A DNA stretch of 64,000 nt from Spirochaetota bacterium. Its GTDB lineage: Bacteria; Spirochaetota; Spirochaetia; Treponematales; UBA12059. Below, piece after piece: positions 16,755 through 24,580 of the stretch (positions are counted from its first letter, which is position 1; each line of letters begins with the position of its first letter). The notes under the pieces are model-generated. The model was not told the DNA's origin. It made no database searches and worked only from the letters and a program-made list of their open reading frames with translations. The stretch covers positions 124,001 through 188,000 of the forward strand of contig JADFDI010000004.1 of NCBI GenBank assembly GCA_018262985.1, given 5' to 3'. A program made the translations under genes and the position numbers.

Positions 16755-19292
16755 TCAAGCCCACCTGACGAGTCCCGGTATGAACGGGTGCGCCAGCTTG
16801 TCGTGCTTCGGGAGGACGCGCGCGGAGTAGCCCTGCTGGCCGGTGCGCGTGCAGACCACCGACGCCGAGTACTCGACGAACTCGCCGGACTTCTTGACCG
16901 CCTTCATGGGGACGCGCTCGGCGTCCACGATGGCGCCCTGGCTCGAGACGGCGCCGTGGTAGAGCTCCACCTCGACCTCGTCGCTCGAGAGCGCGCCGAG
17001 CTTGACCTTCGCGGTGGCGGTCACCTTGTCGCCGCGCTCCATGATGGGCTTCGCGTCGGTGGAAAGCTCGGGGATGGCGACGCCCGGCCACTCGCGGTAG
17101 ACCTTGTCGAGATAGGCGGCCGTGTCCTTCGCGTCGAGGAACTTGCCCTTGGCGAGCTCGCGGTAGTTGTCGAGCGCGGGGTAGTAGAACTTCTCGGCGT
17201 ACTCCATGAGCATGCGGTGGCTCGCGAACTGCTTGCCGACCTCGCGCATGGAATTCTTCATCAGCTTGATCCAGCCGCGGGGCAGGCCGTCGCGGCCGCG
17301 CTCGTAGAAGGTCGGGATGACCTCGCTCTCGAGGATGTCGTAGAGCGCCTTGGACTCGACCTCGTCCTGCAGGTCCTCGTCGGTGTACTGCTCGCCCTTG
17401 CCGATGGCCCAGCCGATCTCGGGCGTGTAGGCCTCGGCCCACCAGCCGTCGAGCACCGAGCAGTTGAGCACGCCGTTCATGCCGGCCTTCATGCCGCTGG
17501 TGCCGGAGGCCTCGAGGGGCCGGCGCGGAGTGTTGAGCCAGACGTCGGAGCCGGACACCAGGTAGCGGGCCATGGTCATGTCGTAGTCGTCCAGGAACAC
17601 GATGCGGCTGCCCACGTCCGAGCGGCGCGAGAAGTGCACGAGCTCCTTGATCAGCTCCTTGCCGGCCAGGTCGTGCGGGTGGGCTTTGCCGGCGAAAATG
17701 AGCTGGATGGGCCGGTCGCGGTCGGAGAGCAGCTTGAGCAGGCGGTCCGGGTCGGAAAGCAGCAGGGCGCCGCGCTTGTAGGTCGCGAAGCGCCGCGCGA
17801 ACGAGAGCGTCAGGGTGTTGGGCGAGAGGGCGTCCTCCGCGCGCACGAGGCCCATGTCGCTCGCGCCCATGCGCTTCAGCTGCTTGCGCAGGCGGTCGCG
17901 GGCGAACACCACGAGGCGCTCGCGGCGGCGCTCGTGGGTGCGCCACAGTTCCTCGTCGGACACGCGGTCGATGCGGTCCCAGATGTCGAGGTTGGTCGGC
18001 TCCTCGAGGAAGCGCGGGCCGAAGTAGCGGTCGAGCAGGTCCAAAAGGCCGTGGTTGATCCAGGTGCGGGGGTGCACGCCGTTGGTGACGTGGCCGATCG
18101 GCACCTCGTCGATGGGCAGTCCGGCCCAGAGTCCCTTCCACATGTCGCGCGAGACGACGCCGTGCAGGTCCGCGACGCCGTTCGAGTAGGCGGAGAGCTT
18201 GAGCGCCAGCACCGTCATGCAGAAGGGCTCGCTCATGTCCTCGGGCCGCTCGCGGCCGAGCGCCAGGAATTCGTGCCACTCGAGGCCGAGCTCCTGGGCC
18301 CAGGTCCGGAAGTACTTCTCCATCAGGTCGATGCCGAAGCGCTCGTTGCCGGCCGGCACGGGAGTGTGCGTGGTGAAGAGGTGGGTCGGCCAGACCGCCT
18401 GCGCGGCCTCGCGGAAGGTGAAGCCGTCGTTCCGCATGTGCTCGCGGATGCGCTCGAGCGCCAGGAAGGCCGAGTGGCCCTCGTTCATGTGCGCCACGCC
18501 GATGTCGATGCCGAGCGCGCGCAGGGCGCGGATGCCGCCCACGCCGAGCAGCAGCTCCTGGCGGATGCGGTTCTCCTTGTCGCCGCCGTAGAGGGTGGCG
18601 GTGATCAGGCGGTTCTCGGGCGTGTTGTCGTCGATGTTGGTGTCGAGCAGGAACAGCGACGAGCGCCCGATCTTCGCCTCCCACACCTGGGCCACGACGA
18701 TCTGCCCCGCCATCTCGACGGAGATCTTGACCGCCTCGCCCTTGGCGTCGAGGCAGCGGCTCACGGGCATGTTGTACCAGTCGTTCTCGGGGTAGGACTC
18801 CTGCTGGAAGCCGTCCGCGTTCAGGTACTGCTGGAAGTAGCCCTGCCGGTAGAGGAGACCGACGCCCACGAGCGGCAGGCCGATGTCGGAGCTGGTCTTC
18901 ATGTGGTCGCCGGACAGGATGCCGAGGCCGCCTGAATAGATGGGCAGCGAGACGTCGAGGCCGTACTCCATCGAGAAGTAGGCGATCGTCTCCTTGCCCT
19001 TGCCCTTGTGCCAGGCCTCGCCCTTCTTGTAGCGCTCGAAGGCGGCCGCCACCTGGTCGAGGGCGGCCAGGAAGGAGTCGTCCTTGGCCAGTTCCTCGTA
19101 ACGGTCCTGGCTGACCATGCCGAGCATGCGCGCGGGGTTCTGGCGACTCTGGAGCCAGACTTCGTAGTCGAGGCGGATGAAGAGCATCACCGCGTCGAAA
19201 TTCCAGGACAGCCAGAGGTTGTGCGCGATCTCCTCGAGCGCCTTGAGGCGCGCGGGAATCTTCGGCTTCACGGTATGCGCGATTATCTTCAT
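16755..19292 (-). CDS. glgP: alpha-glucan (glycogen/maltodextrin) phosphorylase
   Basis: An 845-residue family GT35 phosphorylase that releases glucose-1-phosphate from alpha-1,4-glucans in the cytoplasm. The N-terminus has the DUF3417-type start ending in EIAHNLWLSWNFDAV, and IYSGGLGILSGDHMKTSSD is the usual glycine-rich loop. The pyridoxal-phosphate lysine is in EASGTSGMKAGMNG, about residue 600. This is the shorter bacterial/archaeal subgroup of alpha-glucan phosphorylases, which lacks animal-type regulatory sites. GAGGGG lies before the ATG. It stands alone; the nearest carbohydrate gene in the window is the glucosidase at 42-44 kb. Confidence 0.95.
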   Translation of the reverse strand: MKIIAHTVKPKIPARLKALEEIAHNLWLSWNFDAVMLFIRLDYEVWLQSRQNPARMLGMVSQDRYEELAKDDSFLAALDQVAAAFERYKKGEAWHKGKGKETIAYFSMEYGLDVSLPIYSGGLGILSGDHMKTSSDIGLPLVGVGLLYRQGYFQQYLNADGFQQESYPENDWYNMPVSRCLDAKGEAVKISVEMAGQIVVAQVWEAKIGRSSLFLLDTNIDDNTPENRLITATLYGGDKENRIRQELLLGVGGIRALRALGIDIGVAHMNEGHSAFLALERIREHMRNDGFTFREAAQAVWPTHLFTTHTPVPAGNERFGIDLMEKYFRTWAQELGLEWHEFLALGRERPEDMSEPFCMTVLALKLSAYSNGVADLHGVVSRDMWKGLWAGLPIDEVPIGHVTNGVHPRTWINHGLLDLLDRYFGPRFLEEPTNLDIWDRIDRVSDEELWRTHERRRERLVVFARDRLRKQLKRMGASDMGLVRAEDALSPNTLTLSFARRFATYKRGALLLSDPDRLLKLLSDRDRPIQLIFAGKAHPHDLAGKELIKELVHFSRRSDVGSRIVFLDDYDMTMARYLVSGSDVWLNTPRRPLEASGTSGMKAGMNGVLNCSVLDGWWAEAYTPEIGWAIGKGEQYTDEDLQDEVESKALYDILESEVIPTFYERGRDGLPRGWIKLMKNSMREVGKQFASHRMLMEYAEKFYYPALDNYRELAKGKFLDAKDTAAYLDKVYREWPGVAIPELSTDAKPIMERGDKVTATAKVKLGALSSDEVEVELYHGAVSSQGAIVDAERVPMKAVKKSGEFVEYSASVVCTRTGQQGYSARVLPKHDKLAHPFIPGLVRWA

Positions 19293-19342
19293 TGGATACC
19301 CCTCGCGGAAACGGTCTGCGGCCGCGCAGGCGGCGGGCCAAA

Positions 19343-19371
19343 GCCTAAAGGAAAACCGGTTTAGCTGTCAA
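19343..19371 (-). promoter_or_regulatory. probable glgP promoter
   Basis: On the minus strand a consensus -35 TTGACA (19371-19366) is followed after 17 bases by TTAGGC (19348-19343), a poor -10. The ATG of glgP is about 50 bases further on. The perfect -35 is the main support. Confidence 0.4.
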
Positions 19372-19535
19372 TCGACACACAGAAAACGATTTCGATACGG
19401 GTGGATGATGGGAAAGTATGGAAGAACAGCCCGCGGTTTTCCAGCTCGCCCTACCCGCCCCGAGGCGCGGCGTCCGTCTTCACGGAAGGGGCGGGGGCTT
19501 CGCGTCGGGCGTCGGAAGCGGGCGGGGCGGCGCTC

Positions 19536-19562
19536 CTTCCCGCCGTGGGGGGCGGCGGGAAG
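19536..19562 (-). terminator. hairpin downstream of the helicase-like gene
   Basis: A perfect 10-bp stem (19536-19545 with 19553-19562) around a seven-base loop lies 28 bases after the stop of the 19591-21561 gene. No T-tract follows. The remaining gap to glgP (about 19372-19535) shows nothing else. Confidence 0.4.
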
Positions 19563-19590
19563 GCCGTGGCATGGGGCTCGCGCGGCGCCG

Positions 19591-21561
19591 CTATTCGGAC
19601 GGGTTCCGCTTGCCGCCGAAGAGCCTGCCGAACAGGCCCGGCTTGGACTCGCCGCGGGCGGGTTCGCGCGCGACCTCGCGCGGGCTATCGGCTCCCGTTG
19701 CCTTCTGGGAGGGTTCGCGCTCCGCCGGCCGTCCCTCGCGCGGGGCGCGATCCGGGCCGTGCTTCCGTCCTGCCGGGCGCTTCGTACCGCCCGGTTCTCC
19801 CAGGCGCTTCGGTTGGTCCTGCCGACCGCCGCCGGCTTTGGCGGAGCCGTATTTCTCGCGGTACAGCTTGAGCCGCTCCTCCATCGGCAAGGCGTAGGGA
19901 TCGGCGCCTTCGAGGGCGCCGGAACCCGAGCCTCGACGCTCCCGGTCCCGACGCGCGTTCGGGGTTCCGCCGCGCCGGTTCCCCTTGCCCGGGACGCCGC
20001 CCGTCCCGGGCCCGCCCGAACCGCGGCCATTTGCCGAGCCGCCGTTTCCGGTCCGAGGTTCTCCGGCCCCTCGGGCCGCGCGATCCGGCTTCGCCGGAAC
20101 CGGGCTTCCCTCGTTCTCGCGGGATTTTCCGCGACCGCGCTTCCGGCGCTTCCGGCCGGCGCCCGCCGACGGCTGGCCGTCGCCCGTCCGCCCGGCGGAA
20201 GCCCGCGTCGCGTCGCCCGCCGCGGGCCGGGACGGCGCCTCGGCGGGCATCTGCCCGGTGATGGCGGAAATGCCGGCGCGGATGGCCGCGGCCGCCAGGG
20301 GATCGGGACCTTCCCCGCCCGACCTCCGATCGCCCCGTTGTTCCCGCCGATTCCGCTGGACGGCGCGCGGTTCGGACCGCCCGAGGTCGTCCCGCCGGCC
20401 GGCGTCGCGGCGTTGCGCTTCGGTCCGGTCGCGCTCACGCCCGGCAGCGGCCTCGCGCGCGGGAAGTTCCGCGAAGAGCGAGGGGTCGGCGTCGAGCACC
20501 GGGAGGCTCGCGCCGAGCACCCGTTCGATGGCCGGAAGGCCGAAATCGTAGCGTTCGCAGGCTATCCCGATCACCTCGGCGCCCGGCGCCTCCGCGTCGA
20601 GCAGGCCGGAGCGCGCCAGCCAGGGCTCGCCTTCGAGGGGCAGGTCGTAGTCGAGCACGAGCGGGAAGGCTCCGGGGGGGAAGGCGGCCGCCTCCGCGTC
20701 GGTCATGACGAAGGCCGTCGGCGAGCCCTTCGCGCCGCGCAGCAGGTCGAGCGCGCGTCCGCGGCGGACGCCCTCCTCCACGAGCCTCGCAGGGACGCCG
20801 AAAGCGCGCAGCGCGGCGTGGAGCTCCCGAGCCGTTGCGGAGAGGTTGCAGAGCACCGCGACCGGTCCGCCCCGGGCCGAGCCGAGGAGGCCGGCGGCGA
20901 GCCGGGCCTTGTCGGCCGCGGGCGATCGCAGGATCCGGCAGGGAACCGTCCGCGCCCGTTCGGAGCCGGCTTCCAGCTCGAGGAGGCGGAATCCGGGAGC
21001 GAGGGCCTCGGCGACGGCTCGGGCTTCCGGTCCCTGGCGTTCGCAGAACACGAGGACGCGCCGCGCGGCCGGAGCCGCGTCGGTGTCGGCCAGGAGGGCG
21101 AGCGCCCCGGGCGCCTGCCGTTCGGCTTCCAGCACGACGACGAGTCCGAAACCGTCGACCGGGAAAGCCCCGCCTTCCATCCGGGCGGAAAGCGTCGGGG
21201 CGGAACAGACCACGACGGGGGCGTCGGCGTCCGACGCGTCGGCGATGCGCCCCAGCGCGGTGGCCTCGACGCCGGCCGCGAGCGACAGGGCGCGGACCTT
21301 GTCCAGGACGCCCCCGACCTGCTCGTCCGCGGCGACGACCGCGAGGGTCCTGCGCCCGTCCCCGCCGGCCATCCAGCGGAACGACGGCAGGAGCCAGGCG
21401 GCCTCGCCGCCCGGTCCGAGCCGCGAAGCGACGAGCAGGTTCAGGCCTTCGCCGAAGGCGAGCGCGGCGACCGCCTCGGCGTGCTTCGCCATAGATCCGT
21501 ATCCGGCGGCCTTCGCGGCCGCGCTCGCTGCGGGCGGAAGCCCGAAATCCTCGATATCCAT
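19591..21561 (-). CDS. degenerate DEAD-box helicase-like protein with long Arg/Gly-rich tail
   Basis: A 656-residue protein whose first 375 residues follow the outline of a DEAD-box RNA helicase but lack its catalytic motifs. The Walker A position reads SRLGPGGEAAWL instead of a GKT loop, and the DEAD position reads LVVVLEAERQ. The second domain keeps GPVAVLCNLSATARELHAAL, FVMTDAEAAAFPPG and LVLDYDLPLEGEPWLARSG, echoes of the usual helicase motifs IV-VI. Residues 375-656 are low-complexity, rich in Arg, Gly, Pro and Lys, like RNA-binding RGG tails. It may have kept RNA binding without ATP-driven unwinding. The family call is from motif layout, so only moderately sure. Confidence 0.6.
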   Translation of the reverse strand: MDIEDFGLPPAASAAAKAAGYGSMAKHAEAVAALAFGEGLNLLVASRLGPGGEAAWLLPSFRWMAGGDGRRTLAVVAADEQVGGVLDKVRALSLAAGVEATALGRIADASDADAPVVVCSAPTLSARMEGGAFPVDGFGLVVVLEAERQAPGALALLADTDAAPAARRVLVFCERQGPEARAVAEALAPGFRLLELEAGSERARTVPCRILRSPAADKARLAAGLLGSARGGPVAVLCNLSATARELHAALRAFGVPARLVEEGVRRGRALDLLRGAKGSPTAFVMTDAEAAAFPPGAFPLVLDYDLPLEGEPWLARSGLLDAEAPGAEVIGIACERYDFGLPAIERVLGASLPVLDADPSLFAELPAREAAAGRERDRTEAQRRDAGRRDDLGRSEPRAVQRNRREQRGDRRSGGEGPDPLAAAAIRAGISAITGQMPAEAPSRPAAGDATRASAGRTGDGQPSAGAGRKRRKRGRGKSRENEGSPVPAKPDRAARGAGEPRTGNGGSANGRGSGGPGTGGVPGKGNRRGGTPNARRDRERRGSGSGALEGADPYALPMEERLKLYREKYGSAKAGGGRQDQPKRLGEPGGTKRPAGRKHGPDRAPREGRPAEREPSQKATGADSPREVAREPARGESKPGLFGRLFGGKRNPSE

Positions 21562-21754
21562 GCTGGGTCTCTCGTGGCGTAAGGATGCGCGGAAGCCAGG
21601 GTCCGCGGAGACGGGGCTCGATGGCGCCGGGGACGCGGACTCGCCCGCGGTCCGCGGAGCCGCGGGATTGCCGTCAGGCGGCCGCCCGTGCGTGGAATAT
21701 AGCTTCCCCGGGGGCGGATGTGAAGCGCGTTCGGTTCCCGTTCCCTTCCCGTCC
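21562..21754. other. intergenic, nothing recognised
   Basis: Between the start of the helicase-like gene and the stop of the YgjV-like gene. No gene, clear promoter or hairpin stands out. Confidence 0.4.
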
Positions 21755-22411
21755 TCAGTCGGACGCCCGGGGTTCCAGGCGCATCGAGTACTCGCGGCGT
21801 CCGTCAGCCCCCGTCGCTCCCGGCGCGAAGCCCATGCGCTCGAGGTAGCGGGCGTGCTCGGCCACCGCGGTCCTGGCCACGAAGACCGTGGGCTTGCCGC
21901 CGGAGAGGCGCCGGCCGACGCTCGAGAACCAGTACTCGGCGTTCTTGAAATCGCGCCAGCTCGGGGCCGCGTAGTCCAGCGCGATCTCGACGCGGCCGTC
22001 GGCCGCGCGCTTCCAGACGACGATGCTGACCGGCACCATGTCGCGCAGGATGAATTCCGCGGTGTAGCCGGCGGCGGACTCGCGGCTGAAGCCGGGCTCG
22101 AAGCGCGCGATGTCCTTCGCGTAATGGTCGAGGAAGAGCTTCGCGTAATCCGAGCTCGCCAGGTCCACCTCGAGGGTGTCGAAGGCCGAGCGCGTGGCGC
22201 CCATCCGGTAGAGGTACCAGGCGTCGATCAGCACGATGAACAGGTTCAGGATCCAGACGGGCAGCGCCCCGATCAGGACGCCGTAGACGGTGAAACCGGC
22301 GGCGCCGACCAGGTTGAGGATGCGGAGCCGCTTGATGTTCTTCATGGTGAGCGAGACGGCGACCACGGCCGAGGCCGCGGTTCCGAAAATCTCTATCCAG
22401 TCCCCGCGCAT
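21755..22411 (-). CDS. YgjV-like membrane protein with C-terminal acyltransferase-like domain
   Basis: A 218-residue protein. The N-terminal 75 residues hold three hydrophobic helices with a motif typical of YgjV-type inner-membrane proteins (LTMKNIKRLRILNLVGAAGF). The remaining 140 soluble residues (FILRDMVPVSIVVWKRA, ALDYAAPSWRDFKNAEY, ARYLERMGFAPG) resemble a GNAT-like fold, especially the final YLERMGF element. Similar proteins occur widely, and no function is established to my knowledge. I start it at the ATG at 22411, with GGAGGA five bases upstream, rather than at the longer open frame. It diverges from the NDH-2 gene. Confidence 0.65.
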   Translation of the reverse strand: MRGDWIEIFGTAASAVVAVSLTMKNIKRLRILNLVGAAGFTVYGVLIGALPVWILNLFIVLIDAWYLYRMGATRSAFDTLEVDLASSDYAKLFLDHYAKDIARFEPGFSRESAAGYTAEFILRDMVPVSIVVWKRAADGRVEIALDYAAPSWRDFKNAEYWFSSVGRRLSGGKPTVFVARTAVAEHARYLERMGFAPGATGADGRREYSMRLEPRASD

Positions 22412-22432
22412 TCGTTCCTCCATCGGTCCCAA

Positions 22433-22576
22433 ATGACCGCTATATATGATATTCTCAATACAGAATCATTTTTTATATATAAAATAGGCACTTGACCCTG
22501 TCAGGATCTTCCTTCAATATACGCAATGTCCAAAATCTATACCACGCTTCGGCATCGATACTCGAGAGGAGTCCAT
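22433..22576 (+). promoter_or_regulatory. A/T-rich divergent intergenic region with a probable ndh promoter (22492-22520)
   Basis: The region between the YgjV-like gene and ndh is strikingly A/T-rich for this chromosome. TTGACC at 22492-22497 is followed after 17 bases by CAATAT (22515-22520) on the plus strand. An imperfect palindrome ATTCT-N6-AGAAT lies upstream near 22451-22466 and could be a repressor site. A ribosome-binding site GAGAGGAG precedes the ATG at 22577. Confidence 0.45.
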
Positions 22577-24580
22577 ATGGCAGACCAGAAGCGGATCCTG
22601 ATCCTCGGCGGCGGCTATGCCGGCGTCTGGGCGGGAAAGATCCTGGAGAAGCGCTTCCGCAAGCGCGATGACGTGAAGATCACGCTCATCGACAAGCTTC
22701 CCTTCCACACCCTCATGACCGAGCTCCACGAGGTCGCCGGTTGGCGCACCGAACCCGAGTCGGTCCAGGTTCCCTTCCGGAAGATCTTCGCCACCAAGAA
22801 GATCGACGTCGTCCTCGACACCGTCACCGGCGTCGAGCTCGACAGGAAGCTCGTCAAGACCGAGCGCGGCGAATACGCCTACGACTACCTCGTCGTCGGC
22901 TTCGGCGCCCAGCCCGAGTTCTTCGGCATCCCCGGCGTCAAGGAGAACAGCTTCACGCTCTGGTCCTTCGACGACGCCATGAAGATCCGCAACCACGTCG
23001 AGGACGTCTGGACCCGCGCCGCCGCCGAGCCCGATCCGGACAAGCGCCGCAAGCTCCTGACCTTCGTGGTCGCGGGCGCGGGCTTCACCGGCATCGAGAT
23101 GTTCGGCGAGCTCGTCGAGCACCGCGATGTCATGTGCCGCAAGCACCACATCGACAGGTCGGAAGTCCGCATCGTCAACGTCGAGGCCCTGCCTTCCATC
23201 CTGCCCATCCTCGAGGAGCCGCTGCGCGCGGCCACCGAGAAGTACCTCGCGAAGCACGGCGCCGAGATGATGCTCAACACGCCCATCGTCGGCGCCGAGC
23301 CGGGCAAGGTGCTCCTCAAGGACAAGGGCGCCATCGAGACCGAGACCTTCATCTGGACCTGCGGCGTCTCCGGTTCGTCCTTCGCGGCCGGCCTCGGGCT
23401 GGCCAAGGCCGAACGCGGCCGCGGCCGGCTCCAGGCCGACTCCGGCATGGGCGCCGTCGGGCATCCGGGCGTCTATGTCGCCGGCGACAACTCCTTCCTG
23501 CTCGAGGACGGCAAGCCGGTTCCGCAGATCGTCGAGGCCGCCCACCAGACCGCCGAGGTCGCGGCCGCCAACATCATCGAAGAGATCGAGGGCACGGGCA
23601 AGCGCCACGAGTTCAAGTCCAACTTCCACGGCTTCATGGTGTCGATCGGCGGCCGCTACGCGGTGGCCAACGCCGGCGGCATGAAGTCCAAGGGCTTCAT
23701 CGCCATGGCGATGAAGCACATGATCAACTGCTGGTACCTGCTCAACATCGCGGGCGTCAACCAGGTCTGGGAATACGTCAAGCACGAGTTCCTCGACATG
23801 AAGAACGGCCGCTCCTTCATCGGCTCGTTCGCTTCCTACAAGGTCCGCGGCTACTGGCCGCTGCTCCTGCGCATGTGGCTCGGCCTCATGTGGGTGATGG
23901 AGGGCGTCAACAAGATCGGCGAAGGCTGGCTGGCCTGGGGCTCCGGCTCCAAGTCCGGCTGGATGTTCTCCCAGGGCGTGGTGCAGGCCGGCCAGAAGGT
24001 CGCGGAAGCCACCAGCGCCGCCTCGGCCGAATGGGTCGAAGGCGCCGAGACGGCCGTCGAGGCCACCGCCGCGGCCTCCGGCGAGTGGGTCGAGCCCGCG
24101 GCCGAAGCGGTCGCCGCCGCCAGCGAGTGGGTGGCCGAGGGCGCCGAGGCGGTCGCCGAAGGCGCCACGCAGGCCTTCGGCAAGGTCTGGGACCTGACGC
24201 AGGCCATCATCCCCTACGACTCCGGCTTCGTCACCTGGTTCCGGCAGACCTTCATGGACGGCATCTTCGCCTTCCTGCCCTTCCAGGCCTTCCAGCTCAT
24301 GATCGTCGCCATGGAGATCGGCATCGGCCTCGCTCTCTTCGGCGGCCTCTTCACCTGGGTGGCGGCCGTGGCCAGCATCGGCATGTGCTTCGTCTTCACC
24401 TTCTCCGGCATGTTCGCCTGGGACCAGCTCTGGTTCGTGTTCGCGGGCATCCTGATGATGGGCGGCGCGGGCCGCGCCTTCGGCTTCGACAACTGGATGG
24501 TGCCCTTCCTCAAGCGCTGGTGGAACGGCACGAAGTTCGCCCGCAAGTGGCACTTCTACGGCGACGACCCCTCGAAGTGA
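22577..24580 (+). CDS. ndh: type II NADH dehydrogenase fused to a DoxX-like membrane domain
   Basis: A 667-residue protein. Residues 1-420 are an NDH-2-like flavoprotein: FAD motif ILILGGGYAGVWAG near the start, NAD motif FVVAGAGFTGIEMFGEL near 170, and GVYVAGDNSFLLEDGKPVPQ near 305. NDH-2 passes electrons from NADH to quinone at the inner membrane face without pumping protons. Residues 430-667 hold about four transmembrane segments resembling DoxX. Between the first and second of these lies an Ala/Glu-rich stretch with three copies of an A-x-S-x-EWVE-like unit (about residues 478-528). The start is the ATG at 22577 behind GAGGAG. A strong terminator follows, so it is monocistronic. Confidence 0.85.
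   Translation: MADQKRILILGGGYAGVWAGKILEKRFRKRDDVKITLIDKLPFHTLMTELHEVAGWRTEPESVQVPFRKIFATKKIDVVLDTVTGVELDRKLVKTERGEYAYDYLVVGFGAQPEFFGIPGVKENSFTLWSFDDAMKIRNHVEDVWTRAAAEPDPDKRRKLLTFVVAGAGFTGIEMFGELVEHRDVMCRKHHIDRSEVRIVNVEALPSILPILEEPLRAATEKYLAKHGAEMMLNTPIVGAEPGKVLLKDKGAIETETFIWTCGVSGSSFAAGLGLAKAERGRGRLQADSGMGAVGHPGVYVAGDNSFLLEDGKPVPQIVEAAHQTAEVAAANIIEEIEGTGKRHEFKSNFHGFMVSIGGRYAVANAGGMKSKGFIAMAMKHMINCWYLLNIAGVNQVWEYVKHEFLDMKNGRSFIGSFASYKVRGYWPLLLRMWLGLMWVMEGVNKIGEGWLAWGSGSKSGWMFSQGVVQAGQKVAEATSAASAEWVEGAETAVEATAAASGEWVEPAAEAVAAASEWVAEGAEAVAEGATQAFGKVWDLTQAIIPYDSGFVTWFRQTFMDGIFAFLPFQAFQLMIVAMEIGIGLALFGGLFTWVAAVASIGMCFVFTFSGMFAWDQLWFVFAGILMMGGAGRAFGFDNWMVPFLKRWWNGTKFARKWHFYGDDPSK

Follow-up and report, generated by a model that had tools for sequence, protein, structure and literature searches.

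A helicase-like gene and its surroundings

The gene under study lies on the minus strand of the window (the whole stretch of spirochaete DNA that was analysed, 64,000 nucleotides long, from a genome of 3.44 Mb in 22 contigs). Its frame of 656 codons opens with an ATG at position 21561 and closes with a stop at 19591-19593, exactly where the earlier note had placed an open reading frame. Below, homologues that share its loss of catalytic residues are called dead copies, and the EER motif is a 19-residue element of the tail (DPYALPMEERLKLYREKYG in the window) that is common to dead and catalytic paralogues. The features of the gene, each with its basis in brackets, are as follows:

19591..21561 (-), whole gene of a 656-residue DEAD-box pseudohelicase (open frame, orthologues, dN/dS)
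20962..21561 (-), RecA-like domain 1, residues 1-200, ATPase motifs lost (AlphaFold2, motif table)
21403..21426 (-), former Walker A loop SRLGPGGE, residues 46-53 (aligned to SQTGTGKT)
21121..21138 (-), former motif II VVLEAE, residues 142-147 (aligned to VVDEAD)
20476..20961 (-), RecA-like domain 2, residues 201-362, the better conserved scaffold (AlphaFold2)
20593..20616 (-), former motif VI ARSGLLDA, residues 316-323 (arginine finger lost, R317 kept)
20524..20565 (-), domain 2 element IACERYDFGLPAIE, residues 333-346 (retained by dead and catalytic paralogues alike)
19594..20475 (-), basic, mostly disordered tail, residues 363-656 (low pLDDT, composition)
20251..20301 (-), post-core helix PLAAAAIRAGISAITGQ, residues 421-437 (AlphaFold2 helix 421-435)
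19846..19902 (-), EER tail motif, residues 554-572 (AlphaFold2 helix 560-571)
19606..19638 (-), C-terminal hydrophobic-basic peptide GLFGRLFGGKR, residues 642-652 (short predicted helix)

Local GC content around the gene is 75%, and a plus-strand ORF of 801 residues (window 19177-21582) runs antisense to the entire gene; since long antisense ORFs are expected at such GC content, we read it as spurious. The minus-strand reading is backed by core homologues (21-86% identity), by conservation of the frame and by dN/dS, which was 0.36 and 0.37 for the window gene against two near relatives, L053 (compared over the core) and L054 (compared over its full length), respectively. Domain 2 had the lowest value among the long segments (0.28), and the EER motif had the lowest of all (0.16 between the window and L054, over only 19 codons). 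The dead core matches in homologues contained no internal stops, and two short tail pieces (in G011 and G022) read past the dead gene's own stop codon. The gene is under selection for its protein product, though its core evolves several times faster than that of the catalytic paralogue (dN/dS of ∼0.36 versus 0.087).

Neighboring genes were compared across 23 loci, some of which are cut short, and all of which are included in the counts that follow. Directly downstream lies a DUF3417/carbohydrate phosphorylase gene (window 16755-19292, minus strand), which is downstream in 12 of the 23 loci. Outside the closest relative, the phosphorylase keeps ∼65-76% identity, including at loci whose dead helicases share no more than ∼28-39%, and a shared transcription unit with the dead helicase is possible. 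Upstream, on the opposite strand, is an NDH-2 gene (window 22526-24580, plus strand; type II NADH dehydrogenase-like with a DoxX-like C-terminal segment in one 684-residue frame), an arrangement found in 13 loci. A 225-residue protein (window 21755-22432, minus strand) with a weak Imp-YgjV match below cut-off adjoins the dead helicase in six. Gene order fits vertical descent of the dead gene.

An AlphaFold2 model built with 26 aligned sequences gave pLDDT values of ∼74-97 per ten-residue block across residues 1-390, followed by a disordered tail with three short predicted helices (421-435, 560-571, and 643-648). The predicted fold of residues 1-360 is the tandem RecA fold of DEAD-box type, which bears out the helicase origin proposed in the earlier note, a structure other than a RecA-like tandem being what would have spoken against it. 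The top Foldseek match was RNA-bound DbpA (7pmm_B, E = 2.3e-16), the top seven VIA-align matches were structures of DDX6, eIF4A, Dbp5, and Sub2 (Z of 25.1-26.6, rmsd of 5.0-6.3; DDX6 4ct4_B with Z of 26.6, rmsd of 5.7, and 351 aligned), and the solved-structure matches listed for the model are DEAD-box proteins. A half-open arrangement of the lobes was considered, as partner-held DDX6, eIF4A, and Dbp5 are among the top VIA-align matches, but a single predicted arrangement with a pTM of 0.43 was rejected as evidence of a bound state. At the level of sequence, phmmer with the window protein alone reached DbpA (7pli_A, 2.9e-6, residues 8-320), and a profile of the family reached DEAD-box proteins at 2.8e-38. 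A Pfam search of the window protein gave no domain at E ≤ 1; among 26 family members, Helicase_C was found in 20 and DEAD in 7.

Domain 1 is the most diverged folded part among dead copies (27% mean pairwise identity, against 38% in domain 2). Domain 2, whose motifs the earlier note had called recognizable, is indeed recognizable, though from its fold and from isolated residues (CNL, TD, YDLPLE, and CERY..GLPAIE) and not from intact motifs; D306, P308, L309, R317, R337, Y338, and G341 are invariant in all 21 rows of alignment A1. Beyond the core, the helix PLAAAAIRAGISAITGQ is conserved among dead copies only (43% identity between dead copies, 17% between dead and catalytic ones).

Catalytic residues and tail

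Residues were compared between 36 aligned dead copies and 23 catalytic relatives, and the DEAD-box motifs carry their generally known names and roles. The dead rows L004, L013, L019, L078/L099 (truncated), and L119 (too divergent) were left out of this set, as were duplicate loci of the same genes and the catalytic rows L115, L123, and L126, which were motif-less by text pattern; dropping the latter may slightly inflate the motif identities given below, and the genome of L115 does have an EER motif in the genome-wide motif search despite the text-pattern miss.

All scored catalytic residues were present in 23 of 23 catalytic relatives. Among dead copies, the Walker A lysine, whose loss had been noted earlier, is absent from all 36 (Arg takes its place in 30), and the Walker threonine, the Q-motif glutamine, the motif Ib arginine, and the arginine finger were likewise found in none. 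The motif Ia arginine is kept in 4 of 36, the Walker loop glycines in 15-16, and in motif II the first aspartate in 16, the catalytic glutamate in 1, and the last aspartate in 23; the first arginine of motif VI is present throughout (36/36). In the window copy, both Lys and Thr are gone from Walker A (SRLGPGGE versus SQTGTGKT), and motifs Q, Ia, Ib, III, and VI have likewise disappeared. The earlier statement that the acidic pair of the DEAD motif is lost proved slightly too strong for this copy: both aspartates have gone, but it is the one dead copy with Glu at the catalytic-Glu column (VVLEAE). Alignment thus shows the loss of ATPase motifs to be conserved among homologues, and the case of a lone decayed gene beside intact relatives, which the earlier note had considered, does not hold.

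The window protein therefore lacks the residues by which catalytic DEAD-box RNA helicases are recognized (Walker A Lys/Thr, Q, DEAD, and finger); its predicted helicase fold, together with catalytic residues that are missing from its orthologues too, is what is expected of a pseudohelicase. ATPase activity is probably absent from the dead copies, and some nucleotide binding may persist, given that Arg replaces Lys in 30 of the 36 and that 15-16 keep the loop glycines. That the window gene is a maintained DEAD-box pseudohelicase we regard as close to certain.

The same genome encodes a catalytic EER-tail helicase (L002, on contig C11) with the same order of domains, namely a tandem RecA core, a basic tail, and the EER motif, and with a C-terminal hydrophobic-basic peptide like that of the window protein; it differs in that all its ATPase motifs are intact. 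Compared with L117, from a species of the same genus, the core of L002 is 98% identical and its tail 71%.

After residue 362, the window protein continues for 294 residues, of which 36% are Arg or Gly, with a single RGG. The earlier note had described an Arg/Gly/Lys-rich tail as kept; a basic tail is indeed present, but its RG character is mostly a matter of base composition. Tail Arg+Gly tracks GC content among dead copies (Spearman 0.84, n = 36) and catalytic copies (0.86, n = 23) and falls to 14% in GC-poor homologues, so the RG tail is weak evidence for RNA granules, and we rejected it as a granule signature. In at least one dead copy (L031), the tail is without net positive charge. For the C-terminal peptide, an amphipathic membrane-anchor helix was rejected as well: the hydrophobic moment exceeded that of >95% of shuffles in just 3 of 25 sequences (L015, L031, and L020).

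The EER motif, in which a Glu-Arg is invariant, stands out from the rest of the tail. Dead and catalytic copies are 52% identical across it, compared with 20 and 29% across the RecA domains and 15-16% across the low-complexity tail, and no other part is as well conserved among dead copies (60%). Order-wide, 142 EER matches were found in 124 of 142 genomes (once in 106, twice in 18, never more), and 131 of these matches follow a DEAD-type core in the same orientation, no more than 1.2 kb behind it. None of the remaining 11 has an adjacent core match at E of 1e-60 or better; three of them are explained by other evidence (G009, by L119; G002; and G040). In 17 of the 18 genomes with two motifs, both copies lie behind separate cores, one dead-scoring and one catalytic-scoring; the 18th (G020) is split over contigs. 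A wider module was considered and rejected, the motif being confined in its own genome to two DEAD-type proteins (next match at E = 0.72). An exact DNA pattern for the motif matched the window copy alone and was too strict, missing the paralogue. Against solved structures the motif gave one match, at E = 1.8, which was taken as chance.

Distribution and origin

In the window's family, profile scores set full dead cores (410-508 bits) apart from catalytic copies (231-265). Among 23 genomes of family f1, 16 have a full dead core, one has a fragment at a contig end (G021), four have a catalytic copy only (G004, G007, G013, and G014), and one (G005, 72% complete) has neither. In the remaining f1 genome, G009 (99% complete), the catalytic query matched nothing at E ≤ 1e-25 except an extremely diverged dead copy with an EER motif (L119, contig C39). 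Genomes of family f4 were classed by sequence and not by score, as scores do not separate their diverged dead copies (252-264 bits) from catalytic ones. Of the 30 listed, 23 have a dead copy: it accompanies a catalytic copy in 7, and the other 16 yielded no EER-tailed catalytic orthologue. Of the remainder, three carry a catalytic copy alone and four have neither copy above threshold. Families f2, f3, and f5 gave scores in the catalytic range only; there, loci or matches were inspected in one f2, five f3, and three f5 genomes and the rest were judged by score alone, and the seven loci read as sequence are all catalytic (L022 in f2; L025, L028, L030, L121, and L130 in f3; L029 in f5).

A wider search of genome contigs gave 40 loci, of which 25 are dead copies, two are partial (L069 and L083), and 13 are catalytic helicases of other phyla. 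The named records with dead copies are all metagenome-assembled genomes, labeled Spirochaetes, Spirochaetae, Spirochaetota, Spirochaetales, Spirochaetaceae, Treponema, or "bacterium". A phylum-wide search at a threshold of 1e-80 gave at least 3 of 296, the most diverged dead copies (G030, G049, G082, and G107) falling below that threshold.

Against the catalytic core of the window's own genome, catalytic helicases of the EER clade score 458-837 bits (26 sequences) and the next best protein 299. In the 16 f4 genomes that yielded a dead copy and no EER-tailed catalytic one, the best match to this query reached at most 249 bits, and the EER motif occurs once in each except G047 (none; a contig end truncates its copy). 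Completeness is at least 90% in ten of these dead-only genomes (G030, G033, G036, G044, G049, G052, G061, G076, G082, and G101). They hold other catalytic DEAD-box proteins that have no EER motif and, where placed in the tree, belong to other clades; these cells are therefore not devoid of DEAD-box activity but, as far as the draft genomes can show, have no tail-bearing catalytic helicase.

In a FastTree phylogeny of the 106-row set, 39 dead cores were grouped (0.925), adjoining the EER-tail catalytic helicases (0.963), and the dead group was sister to all EER helicases. In an IQ-TREE PMSF tree of 51 rows, one branch (96/97) separated all 20 dead rows, and rooting on 18 other DEAD-box rows placed it inside the EER clade, beside the f1 and f4 catalytic copies. 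This nested placement agrees with the occurrence of dead copies in families f1 and f4 only. Where exactly the dead group attaches to the catalytic clade is unsure owing to long branches; L119 is itself a very long branch. By shared ancestor and EER motif, the window protein belongs to an EER-tail spirochaete DEAD-box clade. The phylogenies support a single origin of the dead family by duplication of a catalytic helicase. Trees and distribution together would best place one duplication in the common ancestor of f1 and f4, probably followed by losses of either copy.

Possible roles and known pseudohelicases

Our preferred reading, to which we give an even chance, is that the pseudohelicase works as an ATP-independent docking protein. 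A catalytic RNA helicase with a basic EER tail was duplicated, in all probability before two spirochaete families diverged, and one duplicate would have shed ATP binding and hydrolysis while retaining the tail motif and the shell of two lobes, above all domain 2. Because the EER motif is shared by both paralogues, it may bind the same putative partner as the tail of the catalytic helicase. Domain 2 could present a protein-binding face: MIF4G domains and Gle1 grip other DEAD-box proteins partly via domain 2, and such complexes occur among the VIA-align matches, the top of which include partner-held DDX6, eIF4A, and Dbp5. The basic disordered tail might loosely hold RNA, and the partner would thereby be brought to RNA without unwinding. 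RNA binding via the tail is plausible from its charge, and RNA binding would come mainly from there since the core has lost its RNA-contact motifs Ia and Ib, a loss that appears to argue against canonical RNA binding by the dead core. The docking reading is suggested by the retention of shell and tail motif, the shedding of catalysis, and the persistence of the gene where the catalytic twin was not found. Counting against it are the faster evolution of the core compared with the catalytic paralogue, which would also fit a weakly constrained gene, the failure of the EER motif to match solved structures beyond chance, the nucleotide binding that may persist, and the tail of L031, which has no net positive charge.

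Several other explanations share part of this evidence. The dead copy could be a dedicated regulator of its catalytic paralogue, by forming a heterodimer or by competing for the same partner via the EER motif, and the motif in both paralogues and the pairing of one dead-scoring with one catalytic-scoring core in 17 of the 18 two-motif genomes are what this would lead one to expect. However, 16 of the 30 listed f4 genomes (10 of them ≥90% complete) keep the dead copy with no tail-bearing catalytic orthologue found, so regulation of the paralogue cannot be the sole role in those genomes, and we consider this explanation unlikely. The core might instead be an inert remnant, with the tail alone acting as an RNA-condensing, granule-forming region. 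The tail is disordered and rich in basic residues, and among dead copies conservation of the EER motif exceeds that of either RecA domain, but domain 2 keeps its invariant residues and the lowest dN/dS of the long segments, and RG content follows GC, which together make an inert core quite unlikely.

Retention of ATP binding or of an altered ATPase, through an Arg-substituted glycine loop serving an ATP-gated clamp, would draw on the G.GR-type loop seen in many copies, the arginine at the Walker Lys column, and the predicted two-lobed fold. Set against this, the Q-motif Gln, the catalytic Glu, the arginine finger, and the Walker Thr are lost nearly throughout and the window's own loop (GPGGE) has neither Lys nor Arg, so that such a clamp seems improbable. 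Decay of the gene is scarcely credible, and we rejected it: dN/dS is above that of the catalytic paralogue and the gene is missing from some family members, but frames are open in the homologues read, the origin is single and old, gene order is conserved across genera, and the EER motif is under strong constraint.

Going beyond the docking reading, we put forward tentatively, and with rather more doubt than belief, that the EER motif is the recruitment tag of an undescribed spirochaete RNA-processing assembly, and that, within one lineage group, the catalytic helicase has given way to the dead copy, which is left as the sole bearer of the motif in the assembly. If this were true, a helicase would have turned into a purely structural subunit of an RNA-processing assembly. 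Pseudoenzymes are well known among kinases and rarely described among RNA helicases, and a bacterial family of DEAD-box pseudohelicases that goes back to one traceable duplication, and whose living relatives have both copies, the catalytic copy only, or the dead copy only, lets one ask what helicases do apart from burning ATP. The shared tail motif offers a concrete handle for a partner search.

The closest named models of the catalytic paralogue are degradosome helicases of the RhlB/CshA type. The best NCBIfam model for L002 is RhlB (NF003390; 419 bits against a cut-off of 732), whereas the dead copy falls far below every cut-off and the window protein is not RhlB (37.4 bits against the same cut-off). 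Helicases of this type are recruited by short segments of a partner; the EER helicases are unlike them in that the conserved short motif lies in their own tail. Text searches of an open-access library listed no bacterial DEAD-box pseudohelicase within the terms used. In the yeast small-subunit processome, Utp25/Def is a DEAD-box pseudohelicase with a DEAD-box fold by AlphaFold, vestigial motifs whose ablation is reported to be tolerated, and a disordered extension (PMC9539457). A DEAD-box fold, degenerate motifs, and a disordered extension are also predicted or seen in the window protein; Utp25 differs in being eukaryotic, in having its extension at the N terminus, and in being essential in ribosome assembly (PMC9539457). 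The PriA pseudohelicase of Deinococcus radiodurans is a DNA helicase of another family, and the abstract on it mentions no catalytic paralogue; like the window's family, it is bacterial and lost its ATPase motifs in one lineage, and it keeps nucleic-acid binding and partner contacts (PMC4504706).
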